Assembly (NCBI GenBank): GCA_026416715.1
Contig: JAOAEQ010000021.1
Location: 5,448 to 69,447, forward strand
Source of the DNA: a bacterium
GTDB taxonomy: Bacteria > UBP4 > UBA4092 > JAOAEQ01
DNA: 64,000 nt
Direction: 5' to 3'
Shown: positions 27,101-64,000 of the stretch, in pieces
Position numbering within the stretch: the stretch's first letter is position 1
Layout of the letters: each line of letters starts with the position of its first letter
Notes under the pieces: model-generated
Database searches by the model: none
What the model was told of the DNA's origin: nothing
Seen by the model: the letters and a program-made list of their open reading frames with translations, nothing else
Translations under genes and position numbers: made by a program

Positions 27101-27771
27101 TGCTGTTCCCGCAATTTCTCTTCCTCTTTCGCTTTCAATTCCATTTCTTTCTTCGCCGCTAACTCCTGCGCCCGCTTCTCAGCAGCAGCCCTCTTCGCCG
27201 CCTCCTCAGCAGCCTTCCGCTCCGCCATCTCTCGTGCCGCCGCCTCCTCAGCCGCCTTCTTCGCCGCTAACTCCTGCGCCCGCTTCAATCGCGCCTCTTC
27301 CGCTAACCGTGCCTTCTCCTCTGCTCGTGCGCGTTCTGCAGCTTCCCGCGCCGCTTTTTCCTGTGCTATCTGCTCTGCTTTCGCTCGTTTAATCGCTTCT
27401 TCTTGTGCTTTCTTTTCTGCAGCTAATCGTGCTCGCTCTTCAACAACTTTCTGTGGATTTGCAATCGCATCATCACATTTCTTGATATAACTTAACGCGT
27501 CTGGATGGCTCGGGTCTAACCGAATCACTCGCTCAAACTGCGCTTTCGCTTCCAGATATTTATCTTGTTCATACAAGGCAATTCCTTTTTTCAAAAATTC
27601 TTTAATCTTCGACTGTTTTTCCTTTTCATACGCTGCCATTTCATCTGCGGTTAATTTCGCAATACGCGTATCTCCTGTATTGACATCAGCGAAACTATTG
27701 GATACACTATAACTCTGAACTAAAATTGAAAAGCCGAGTATTAAACCAATAATTAATCTTGACGATGTCAT
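24163..27771 (-). CDS. pilQ: Giant secretin with TPR and coiled-coil N-terminus (PilQ-like)
   Basis: An outer-membrane pore protein of a type IV pilus or type II secretion system, about 1200 residues. Order (numbered from ATG 27849): signal peptide 27-54, TPR about 82-125, an Ala/Lys/Glu-rich coiled coil about 130-255, TPR about 255-300, more coiled coil, a third TPR near 375-420, an STN/N0 domain near 455-520 (VPDQEIGDVLTQMGAVAGFN), N-domains, a Gly-rich linker (GPGGGGGIG), and the secretin beta domain about 950-1228 ending in GETIVLGGLIHER and KFPILGSIPIIRTFF. Two starts have ribosome sites: ATG 27849 (GGGAGA) and ATG 27771 (AGGGAGG, 9 bases), the second giving a normal signal peptide and used here. 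Confidence 0.88.
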   Translation of the reverse strand: MTSSRLIIGLILGFSILVQSYSVSNSFADVNTGDTRIAKLTADEMAAYEKEKQSKIKEFLKKGIALYEQDKYLEAKAQFERVIRLDPSHPDALSYIKKCDDAIANPQKVVEERARLAAEKKAQEEAIKRAKAEQIAQEKAAREAAERARAEEKARLAEEARLKRAQELAAKKAAEEAAAREMAERKAAEEAAKRAAAEKRAQELAAKKEMELKAKEEEKLREQQISDLLKAGKKNYAQQQYEIAVEQFQKVLELDPNNGEAKSLLEKSQQKLEAILRQEAQALEKQKAKEAAAISAKEQKTRPEKEVVVQKKKQDAEERAYAEKIKRAEAAEAKVRAERAKAELAAKVKEAEAHYQAGLAALNKNDFITAHNEWLTVLSLVPDHRQAKLMIEQTRPEYEKALEEQRKAEELAKQEAENEQRMLAPVITMDVPDQEIGDVLTQMGAVAGFNIIIGEGVKAKVSFSASNWSLKQALDNLLPLYGFKYNRIGNTIQVIPDLKSKVYTLNNDQVRKLHYLMVETRMLQDYLYGKDVKPQIAGQQLYLDERTHQLIITDTKANIAKLDEYITTNLPAVEPRPTELINKTFIIRRGIAEEVRKAVTALLEASPVPGVDITERKVILEPGGTTLVVRDTLDNIRKVEEFLANKNMMDKLAESDLVANAYRVVPRALLADPKDDATEAERKANLRKQMVDGIAEILGAMLYAQEGRDKAYESGRRLIPDEKSGIISVVDTKINQKKVADYIAQLPELEDQPWKIYKIKHAEPNSLLEALRRILQGPGGGGGIGSAPKYTLSQGSGGGVTYGDLYIELVSLTGDTANPSARIYWRTPARDGDQTLTLGQSIQADMYRIRLTKATFNPPQIEIEIWQIQGAQQMQFYQAQQFGQPQGAQLPQRRSMQDIGILDIQQYTPSNALIVWIDRDKPEAWNRFLQAVEQLDIPLLQVSIEAKFIEVNETMAKKYGFDWVIPSLSNIGSLTPVYDQVNFGGSADVLDPLFGTNLIGGNTLYQLQTKGGLSATFQAMEAKGVSKTISSPRVTVINQQSATLSMYKSVPNVTVTWTNSTISYAWSFDSVNISLTVTPTIHEDGSIILNITPTVQEIVGRVPINMVIPDVGLADSPYSKNVLNSEVLGQAVIDTRTLTTQARVNTGETIVLGGLIHERAHTAESKFPILGSIPIIRTFFKKNIDYTETSRLFIFLTATIID

Positions 27772-54944: not shown

Positions 54945-55310
54945 ATGGTAAAAATGAGCAAGTGGTTGATTTCACTCATTACCTTAACACTTATAGCCGG
55001 ATGCATAACCCAATATTCCGGAACAAAAAAACCCTATTCCTCACGAGTGAAAATGGCCAAACCGGCACAACCGGAAATTTTGCAGCATGTCTTCTATATC
55101 GTTATCCCGCCGAAAGGAACCATCAGCTCACGGAAGAAAGTTTTAGTTACGGTATATAAAAGCTATTCAATCCAATCCGGAGAATTGATGAAGGTGGCGG
55201 AAGGAACCCATGTTCGCGGACTTGAAAAACGCGGAGATTGGTATCGTATCCAACTTCCTGACGGCAAAACTGAAGGATGGATGCAAGGATACTATTTAGA
55301 AAAAGAATAA
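54945..55310 (+). CDS. Small lipoprotein with bacterial SH3 domain
   Basis: A 121-residue exported lipoprotein. The signal peptide ends in the lipobox LIAGC (Cys20 from the first ATG). After a Lys/Pro-rich linker, residues about 60-118 look like an SH3b domain (VLVTVYKSYSIQSGELMKVAEG, cut here, then GLEKRGDWYRIQLPDGKTEGW ending YYLEKE). SH3b domains usually bind peptidoglycan. ATG 54954 (MSKWLIS) is a nearby alternative start. It is divergent from eno and stands alone. Confidence 0.75.
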   Translation: MVKMSKWLISLITLTLIAGCITQYSGTKKPYSSRVKMAKPAQPEILQHVFYIVIPPKGTISSRKKVLVTVYKSYSIQSGELMKVAEGTHVRGLEKRGDWYRIQLPDGKTEGWMQGYYLEKE

Positions 55311-55457
55311 TCAATCTAAATTTTGCACTAAGCAATACGCGTTTGGTTGATTCGGTAATGAATTTTACGGAAGTTTCAGTCCAATATCGGCATCGAATCG
55401 AACGAACTTAAAGTATTAGAGTAGAAGTTTAGTATACGGTAAGTCAAATCAATCTAC

Positions 55458-55484
55458 TATTTATTCACCCGTTCATATTCTGCG
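55458..55484. repeat. 27-base direct repeat, distal copy
   Basis: Starts TATTTATTCACCCGTTCATA and ends TTCTGCG. It is identical to 56070-56096, which is the 3' end of the uracil-DNA glycosylase gene. The two copies bracket 585 bases of repeat modules. Confidence 0.95.
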
Positions 55485-55500
55485 GTTGTGACCAAATCGT

Positions 55501-55587
55501 TAGTCCCGAATGACTAGCCCCGACCTTTAGGTTGGGGAGAGATGGTGGTACGGTGTGTCGGGGTGTCGGGCTTCAGCCCAGAACCCG
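55501..55587 (-). repeat. Intergenic repeat module 2, copy B
   Basis: The reverse-strand counterpart of 47949-48027: TAGTCCCGAATG, a CCCCGACC...GGTTGGGG hairpin, then CGGGCTTCAGCCCAGAACCCG. Confidence 0.85.
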
Positions 55588-55691
55588 TCTGCGGTAGCGC
55601 AGGCTGTCAGCCTGTAGAACGTTACCACTCGGGGATATGCAGAAGGGGGCTAAGTCCCTAACGGGACTCACGAAACGATCCCGTATGGCGA

Positions 55692-55788
55692 CCCAGCCAT
55701 AAATGGCTGGGCTAATATCAATCATCCCTTCGGGATTAACAAGAAGCAATTTTTTTCACCGCAGAGAACGCCGAGGGTCTTCTTGGGT
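55692..55788 (-). repeat. Intergenic repeat module 1, copy B
   Basis: On the minus strand it reads CCAAGAAGACCCTCGGCG, TTCTCTGCGGTG, TTGCTTCTTGTTAATCCC, GAAGGGATGATTGATATTA and a GCCCAGCCATTTATGGCTGG palindrome, closely matching copies A and C. Confidence 0.88.
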
Positions 55789-55935
55789 ATATAAACTAAA
55801 CCAAATTTTTTTTCTCAGCGAGCTCTGCGTTCTCTGCGGTGAAAAAAGTTTTGTTGCCGGTTGTTAGCCCTGATAAGGGCGATTGGATTTAGCCCAGCAT
55901 GAAATGCTGGGACTTAGGTCATGAACAAATGCGTT

Positions 55936-55959
55936 AGTCCCGCTCGGGACGGCTGAATG
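55936..55959. repeat. Intergenic repeat module 3, copy B
   Basis: AGTCCCGCTCGGGACG then GCTGAATG, the counterpart of 47882-47905. Confidence 0.75.
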
Positions 55960-55974
55960 CAAAAAGAATATATT

Positions 55975-56003
55975 CACCGCCGAGACCGCCGAGAACGCCG
56001 AGA
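55975..56003. repeat. Short tandem CGCCGAGA-type units
   Basis: CACCGCCGAGACCGCCGAG followed by AACGCCGAGA is three imperfect 9-10 base units. It resembles the CGCAGAG/CGCCGAG part of module 1. Confidence 0.75.
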
Positions 56004-56068
56004 TTGTTCTTGGTTATTCTGGGTTGAAACCCAACGGCGCTGATGATTCAGTCCAATGAACTATTTAT

Positions 56069-56788
56069 TTATTTATTCACCCGTTCATATTCTGCGCGAA
56101 GCAGAAGCATATCCTGCCAGGCATCATATTTCGAGCTCGGATTCCGCAGTAAATATGACGGATGGAACGTAGGGAGAACCGGGATCCCTTCGTAGGTATA
56201 AAATTTTCCACGAAGTTGGCTGATTTTCGATTCCGTCCGGAGTAATGTCTGTGCAGCAAACGTTCCGAGTGCGCAAATCAGTTTCGGTTGGATAATTGCT
56301 AATTGCGCTTTCAGATAGGGTTCACAACATGCAATCTCTTCCGGTAATGGATTCCGATTCCCTGGCGGTCGGCATTTGAGAACATTACAAATGAAAACTT
56401 CCGTTCGCTTGACATTCAGTGATTTTTCAGCTTCAATCATCTGGGTTAATAATTGTCCCGCCCGACCGACAAACGGTCTCCCTTGCACATCTTCGTCTTC
56501 ACCTGGTGCTTCCCCGACAAAAACCAGTTTCGCCCGTGGATTACCTTCTCCGGGAACGGTATTCTTTCTGGTCTTATATAGCGGACATTTGGTACATCGC
56601 GCAATGTCAGCAGCAATATCAGCTAAGGTTCGCATTGTCGGCAAAGTAACCTCGGCTCTATCTTCGGATTTCACTAGGGTTTGCCCATCAAATTCTGCAA
56701 ATTGAGTAAAGGATTCTACTCCGAGTTTTTTAGCGATTCGAAGATGTGTTTCTAATGATGTAATCAGTGCAGTTAATTCGTCAGACAT
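56069..56788 (-). CDS. udg: Family 4 uracil-DNA glycosylase
   Basis: Removes uracil from DNA. 239 residues. The thermostable iron-sulfur class is shown by Cys65 and Cys68 (ARCTKCPLYKTRKN), Cys residues at CRPPGNRNP and further on, and motif GEAPGEDEDVQGRPFVGRAG (about 95-114). The other active-site segment is LPTFHPSYLLRNPS. The last nine codons and stop lie in a 27-base sequence duplicated 612 bases away. It follows pilT by 59 bases. Confidence 0.93.
   Translation of the reverse strand: MSDELTALITSLETHLRIAKKLGVESFTQFAEFDGQTLVKSEDRAEVTLPTMRTLADIAADIARCTKCPLYKTRKNTVPGEGNPRAKLVFVGEAPGEDEDVQGRPFVGRAGQLLTQMIEAEKSLNVKRTEVFICNVLKCRPPGNRNPLPEEIACCEPYLKAQLAIIQPKLICALGTFAAQTLLRTESKISQLRGKFYTYEGIPVLPTFHPSYLLRNPSSKYDAWQDMLLLRAEYERVNK
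56070..56096. repeat. 27-base direct repeat, gene-end copy
   Basis: This is the end of the uracil-DNA glycosylase gene, identical to 55458-55484. As it overlaps coding sequence it is probably the original copy. Confidence 0.95.
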
Positions 56789-62740: not shown

Positions 62741-63859
62741 ATGAAAAAATCAGCTAAATCAGATTATACCATTGAATTAGCCAAATTCCGTGAACGAATC
62801 AATCAAATTGATTCGCAGCTCTTGCGCTTATTAAACCAGCGGTTTGAAATTGTGCTGGAAATAGCGAAATTAAAAAAACAGAATAAAGTGAAATCATTTT
62901 ACGCGCCCCACCGGGAACACCAGATTTACGCGCGATTGTTTAAAGAGAATCAGGGTCCGATGTCCAACCAAGCGATACAATCTATTTTTCGCGAGATAAT
63001 GTCGGCGAGTATCGCGTTAGAGAAAAAACTCAAAGTAGCTTACCTCGGTCCGGAAGCATCGTTTACGCATATGGCAGCGTTATCGCGATTCGGTTCCCAG
63101 ATGGAATATGTTCCTTTGCCAAGTATCGCCGATGTATTTATTGAAGTAGCAAAAAAATGGGCGGATTATGGCGTCGTTCCGATCGAAAATTCTACTGAAG
63201 GGGTGATAAACCATACGTTAGATATGTTTATGTCATTAAGTTCAGCGGCGGAACTGCAAATTTGTTCTGAAATCACGATGGAAATACGCCATCATCTTCT
63301 GTCGAACGGCGAATTGAAATGCATCAAAAAGGTATATTCTCGCGATACTGCGTTAGCCCAGTGTCGGCAATGGTTACAGAACAATTTACCGACTGCAGAA
63401 CTTATTCCGGTATCGAGTACAACGCGAGGAGTACAATTAGCGAAAAAAGATAAAACTGCAGCAGCGATTTCGAGTGAATTAGCGGCTTCATTATATGGGG
63501 TAAAAATTCTGGCGTATGGAATAGAAGATATTCCGGGTAATGTTACTCGGTTTTTAGTTATAGGCCGAACCGTGAGTGAAAAGAGTGGGAATGATAAAAC
63601 GTCAATTATGTTTTCGTTGAAAGATAGAGTTGGCGCGTTATACGATGCATTAAAACCATTCCAAAAATATAACATTAACTTAACGAAAATCGAATCCCGT
63701 CCATCGCGACGTCGCGCTTGGGAATATATATTCTTTGTCGATTTTAATGGATATAAGGATGACGATAACGTAGTTAAAGCGTTAAAAGAAGTTAGTGACC
63801 AATGTGTATATTTAAAAATACTTGGGTCATATCCTGCGAGTAAAATTAGAGCGGATTAA
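62741..63859 (+). CDS. pheA: Bifunctional chorismate mutase / prephenate dehydratase
   Basis: Converts chorismate to prephenate and then phenylpyruvate for phenylalanine synthesis. 372 residues in three parts: chorismate mutase 1-90 (RERINQIDSQLLRLLNQRFE), prephenate dehydratase about 97-275 (VAYLGPEASFTHMAALSRFG, PIENSTEGVINHTLD, the TRF motif in NVTRFLVIG) and a C-terminal ACT domain about 285-365 with the ESRP motif (KIESRPSRRRAWEY) for feedback by phenylalanine. The ribosome site is weak. Confidence 0.96.
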   Translation: MKKSAKSDYTIELAKFRERINQIDSQLLRLLNQRFEIVLEIAKLKKQNKVKSFYAPHREHQIYARLFKENQGPMSNQAIQSIFREIMSASIALEKKLKVAYLGPEASFTHMAALSRFGSQMEYVPLPSIADVFIEVAKKWADYGVVPIENSTEGVINHTLDMFMSLSSAAELQICSEITMEIRHHLLSNGELKCIKKVYSRDTALAQCRQWLQNNLPTAELIPVSSTTRGVQLAKKDKTAAAISSELAASLYGVKILAYGIEDIPGNVTRFLVIGRTVSEKSGNDKTSIMFSLKDRVGALYDALKPFQKYNINLTKIESRPSRRRAWEYIFFVDFNGYKDDDNVVKALKEVSDQCVYLKILGSYPASKIRAD

Positions 63860-63865
63860 TCAGTA

Positions 63866-63973
63866 TAACCAAGAAGCACCTCGGCGACCTCGGCGCTTTC
63901 TGCGGTGAATAAAATTGCTTCTTGGTAATCCCGTTAGGGATGATTGATTCTAGCCCAGCCATTTATGGCTGGG
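63866..63973 (+). repeat. Intergenic repeat module 1, copy C
   Basis: ACCAAGAAGCACCTCGGCG, TTTCTGCGGTGAA, TTGCTTCTTGGTAATCCC, GTTAGGGATGATTGATTCTA and GCCCAGCCATTTATGGCTGG, near-identical to copy B and close to copy A. It begins a few bases after pheA and probably continues as a larger cluster beyond the window. Confidence 0.9.
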
Positions 63974-64000
63974 AATCAAATTACCGCAATCAAATAATGT

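Follow-up and report, generated by a model that had tools for sequence, protein, structure and literature searches.

Duplication of a uracil-DNA glycosylase gene end around a block of palindromic repeat modules in a UBP4 bacterium

Described palindromic repeats and the present locus

Clusters of palindromes between bacterial genes are usually held to be the work of the RAYT enzyme. REP/BIME systems with RAYT form intergenic clusters of alternating palindromes, often as hybrid mosaics and in many copies per genome (PMC2817692). Four BIMEs contain a captured rayt 3' end together with the sequence following the stop codon, and such capture of gene ends next to rayt genes was ascribed to the BIME-making process (PMC2817692). 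The capture of a gene end by a palindrome mosaic is thus already a known phenomenon. The YPAL/RU-2 element of Yersinia is a non-coding, palindromic dispersed element of a defined 168 bp that is flanked by target duplications of 3-26 bp (PMC2229807). Acido-Lenti-1 (RF01687; PMC2864571) is catalogued as an RNA gene found in Acidobacteria and Lentisphaerae.

We analysed a 64,000-nucleotide stretch from the genome of an uncultured UBP4 bacterium (the window) in which a block of palindromic modules lies between two copies of the end of a uracil-DNA glycosylase (UDG) gene (Table 1). As in REP/BIME systems, palindromes of alternating orientation are clustered in many copies, and the captured UDG gene end resembles the captured rayt 3' end. 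Unlike those systems, the palindrome sequences differ, the captured end belongs to a DNA-repair gene and is located at the block's edge, and no cognate Y1/RAYT transposase (PF01797) was found in the genome, which is rated 100% complete. The block resembles YPAL/RU-2 in being palindromic, dispersed and bordered by a duplication, but it is a mosaic with variable ends, and the duplication is present at one locus only. One of its hairpin pairs passes the curated Rfam gathering cut-off for Acido-Lenti-1 (48.2 vs 37 bits). Here, however, the sequence is a module of a DNA repeat mosaic, found on both strands, and the nearest examined relative of the host is UBP4_UBA6127.

A duplicated gene end borders the module block

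The initial annotation described an exact 27-base duplication with 585 bases between the copies. The two copies of TATTTATTCACCCGTTCATATTCTGCG are indeed identical at 27/27 positions, and the length of the duplication had been understated. The 8 bases outside the left copy (CAATCTAC) match those outside the right copy (CAATGAAC) at 6/8 positions, a level equalled by ~0.6% of random local 8-mers. The right copy also carries two TATT units more than the left, an 8-base slippage. This outer extension and the extra TATT units indicate a duplicated piece of ~35 bases with later slippage. The annotation had further proposed that everything between the copies consists of palindromic modules. This holds from 55485 to ~56053, and the 16 bases next to the right copy look like duplicated flank instead.

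Table 1. Features of the UDG locus (positions in the window)
Feature	Position	Strand	Details
SH3-domain protein with lipoprotein-like signal, convergent neighbour	54945..55310	+	
Imperfect outer extension of left copy, CAATCTAC	55450..55457		6/8 to 56054-56061
Left 27-base copy, displaced copy of UDG gene end	55458..55484		
Mosaic of palindromic modules, homologous to other genome clusters	55485..56053		
Acido-Lenti-1 (RF01687) hairpin pair	55692..55737	+	46 bases; 48.2 bits, cut-off 37
Long palindrome flanked by the Acido-Lenti-1 units, CACCGCAGAGAACGCCGAG arms	55748..55850		28-base arms separated by 47 bases, 93% complementary
Second, inverted Acido-Lenti-1-like hairpin pair	55866..55911	-	32.7 bits, below cut-off 37
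Outer extension of right copy, CAATGAAC with two additional TATT units	56054..56069		
Right 27-base copy, native end of UDG gene	56070..56096		
Intact uracil-DNA glycosylase superfamily gene	56069..56788	-	239 aa; PF03167, E 4.7e-40

The probability that a 27-base match arises by chance over so short a distance, a few hundred bases, is negligible. We also considered whether the 27-mer is itself a dispersed repeat, a finding that the initial annotation had named as fatal to its proposal. The 24-base core TTATTCACCCGTTCATATTCTGCG occurs at two sites only, the left and right copies, when the whole 2.96 Mb genome is searched with up to 3 mismatches. The core is therefore unique to this locus and a dispersed-repeat origin is ruled out. 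No copy of the core was found in viral contigs. A longer duplication of ~110 bases, reaching TTCAGTCCAAT at 55375, was rejected; it would need many gaps, and the score of its part before the 27-mer was reached by 59/1000 shuffles.

The right copy had been described as the last codons and stop of the UDG gene. It does cover the last nine codons, and only two of the three bases of the stop codon (56069-56071) lie within the 27-mer. The UDG protein can be aligned to residue 237/239 in UBP4_UBA6127, the nearest relative examined (64% identity), indicating that the gene-side copy is native and that the left copy is the duplicate. Among the genomes compared, the sole member of the same class has 64-65% identity in the UDG protein and lacks the modules. 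We rejected this relative as an empty site, since the DNA downstream of its UDG gene, judged by eye, has no evident similarity to the locus.

The limits of module homology fell at 55484 and 56053 when the block was aligned with every other cluster of the genome, and the alignment with one cluster (L073, C18:40.2 kb) displays both joints. Duplicated flank and modules are thus in direct contact at either side of the block. This tight abutment is the strongest evidence that the block and the duplication arose in one event. The left end of the block falls inside a unit that extends further outward in L073, and the right end falls just inside an outer hairpin (TTCAGTC), showing that the block has no fixed ends. 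At the right junction, the end of the modules has AGTC in common with the left flank; this might represent microhomology, a weak indication that could be due to chance. Besides the features in Table 1, the block contains the hairpins GGGCTTCAGCCCAGAACCC, CAGGCTGTCAGCCTG, CCCCGACCTTTAGGTTGGGG and TTCTGGGTTGAAACCC, and its folding as single-stranded DNA is far stronger than that of shuffled sequences (z -8.7).

The same abutment bears on a history in two steps, with the gene end first duplicated nearby by slippage or unequal exchange and the modules entering or growing between the copies later, in an independent event. In its favour, a few places in 270 kb of the genome do have module-free direct repeats, 20-42 bases long and separated by at most 3 kb, and the repeat has diverged more in its outer part than in the 27-base core, which gives an impression of mixed age. 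Independent events would, however, seldom fill the space between the copies with modules almost to the base, and we regard this history as quite improbable. When the same 270 kb was searched for exact direct repeats of at least 18 bases, no more than 3 kb apart and outside modules, a handful were found besides the 27-mer, none of which brackets a module cluster. One pair of 30-base exact repeats lies in the window itself (27149-27178 and 27257-27286, 108 bases apart), outside the module clusters.

Assembly of repeat clusters is error-prone, and this genome is a draft in which several of the 64 contigs terminate in modules. The window's right end (63834-64000) falls within a module cluster and coincides with the end of contig C21, and contigs C26, C44, C45, C46 and C48 also carry modules at or near their ends, so that the modules seem to break assembly. 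An assembly artefact at the UDG locus is nonetheless very unlikely. A chimeric join would pair unrelated flanks, whereas both flanks here carry the same unique sequence, which speaks against misassembly. Substitutions and the TATT length change also distinguish the outer parts of the two copies.

Module clusters elsewhere in the genome

Sequences from the block were found by BLAST at 76 places in the genome. The modules form ~30 clusters, which are intergenic and occur between genes in all orientations; because clusters were collected from search matches, cluster counts are lower bounds. A recurring module order is an outer hairpin, a CCAGC hairpin and a GGGATTAA hairpin, followed by the same in inverted order, sometimes with the long palindrome between. 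Outer hairpins are recognisable at both edges in 3/29 clusters and at neither edge of the UDG block. Convergent gene pairs surround 7/28 of the entries with genes called on both sides, compared with 16/144 gaps overall; this is a rough count, as a few of the listed entries are repeated coding stretches rather than module clusters.

The genome contains 43 RF01687-like matches, 14 of them above the cut-off. Throughout the genome, as in the window (55692-55737 and 55866-55911), dispersed palindromic mosaics carry the Acido-Lenti-1 "RNA" in inverted pairs and on either strand. The RF01687 family is present in a few other genomes (7/145) and is absent from the class relative. In a genome of another class (G141), RF01687-like hairpin pairs (CGCCGGGTTGAAACCCGTCG...GTTCCTACGGAAC) form tandem arrays with an 87-base period at two loci (L205 and L210) and score below the Rfam cut-off.

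The initial annotation had called for a search for direct repeats at the edges of other module clusters. We compared flanks under two definitions of the cluster edge and against a null distribution obtained by cross-pairing, a test that duplications of a few bases would escape. No comparable direct repeat was found at any of the 24 other clusters with usable flanks, where matches were at chance level. Target-site duplication at a scale this test can register is therefore seen at 1/25 clusters, the UDG block alone. For a MITE or a YPAL-like transposable element, conserved ends and target-site duplication at most or many copies would be expected; the clusters lack conserved ends and show duplication at this single copy. 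Domain searches of the genome, rated 100% complete, gave no matches to RAYT/Y1 (PF01797), DDE_Tnp_1 (PF01609) or rve (PF00665). The absence of such repeats from the other clusters, the unfixed ends and the lack of RAYT, DDE_Tnp_1 and rve matches indicate that regular target-site duplication by these repeats does not account for the insertion. Transposon-style duplication as the normal habit of the modules thus finds no support, and the annotation's proposal of an insertion or recombination with duplication is the best reading for this locus, where the homology abuts a unique 27-mer.

These results weigh on the alternative that a palindromic element truly transposed here with a long, variable target-site duplication, and that the duplications at other clusters have decayed or are short. 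The YPAL/RU-2 precedent of 3 to 26 bp duplications around a palindromic element (PMC2229807), the abutment at both edges of the block and the dispersal of modules to ~30 places all fit such transposition. Against it, direct repeats at the 24 other clusters never rise clearly above the null, cluster ends are not conserved, and the three transposase families searched were not found in the genome. We consider transposition unlikely, although it is the strongest of the alternatives.

Duplication of a gene's 3' end that leaves the gene itself intact is common among integrated elements. Site-specific integration into the gene end, with the 27-mer as att core and the block as the remnant of an integrated element, is nevertheless highly improbable. 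The block has no integrase gene, and its content is the genome's own dispersed modules. Tyrosine recombinases are matched at only two places in the genome, neither of them in the block, and one of these matches contains internal stops. Searches of phage and plasmid records returned no match, and we rejected a phage or plasmid origin.

We also examined a reverse transcriptase as a possible agent. The genome has one match (C8:122466-123164), near a contig end, with motifs that resemble those of diversity-generating retroelements, including GLPIGNLTSQ, which we take to be typical of them. As a single match at a contig end with no link to the block, it was rejected. Separately, we observed a likely diversity-generating retroelement at L086:1019-1930 (G000:C8:21.0-21.9 kb). 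Its variable repeat (~1019-1125) and template repeat (~1754-1858) lie 735 bases apart with a bAvd gene (PF22296) between them, and they differ mainly at template adenines (AAC codons).

Origin of the block and its meaning

The best reading of the UDG locus is an insertion or copying-in of modules with duplication of the flank, and the duplication is a single event rather than a property of the repeat family. As to how it arose, we lean towards an error of repair or replication that, on one occasion, copied part of a palindromic module array into the UDG gene at its 3' edge. The source would be a piece of a REP/BIME-like mosaic with Acido-Lenti-1 hairpins. By one route, a replication fork would leave its template, copy modules elsewhere and return ~35 bases behind its point of departure, in a template switch of the microhomology type. 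By another, a break with ends staggered by ~35 bases would be filled in around a captured piece. Either route would make the 35-base edge twice, with the frame and the stop codon surviving in the gene-side copy.

Both the direction in which events ran and the mechanism of copying are our inference. A block with arbitrary ends and a 35-base flank duplication is what a template switch back or a staggered-break fill-in would leave, the lack of such repeats at 24/24 other testable clusters fits a one-off event, and the strong single-strand folding of the block fits fork stalling. A point against copying-in is that no near-identical donor cluster is present in the genome, where the closest pieces of the block are 86-92% identical and the 27-base copies are 100% identical to each other. 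As 27 bases are few, this difference is only mildly at odds with one-off copying, and as a guide to the age of the event it is compatible but not decisive.

A broader speculation, which we think rather improbable, is that Acido-Lenti-1 hairpins, rather than being RNA genes, belong to a mobile palindromic mosaic able to spread without RAYT by an unrecognised route, sometimes duplicating 30-40 target bases, gene ends included. Palindromic elements with target duplications of up to 26 bp were known before from YPAL, and the finding is a modest one of a known kind whose weight is limited by its restriction to a single locus. The finding also suggests that the Rfam family Acido-Lenti-1 merits re-examination as a DNA repeat. 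The UDG locus preserves a clean footprint of the arrival of one intergenic palindrome cluster, in a genome where no RAYT was found.
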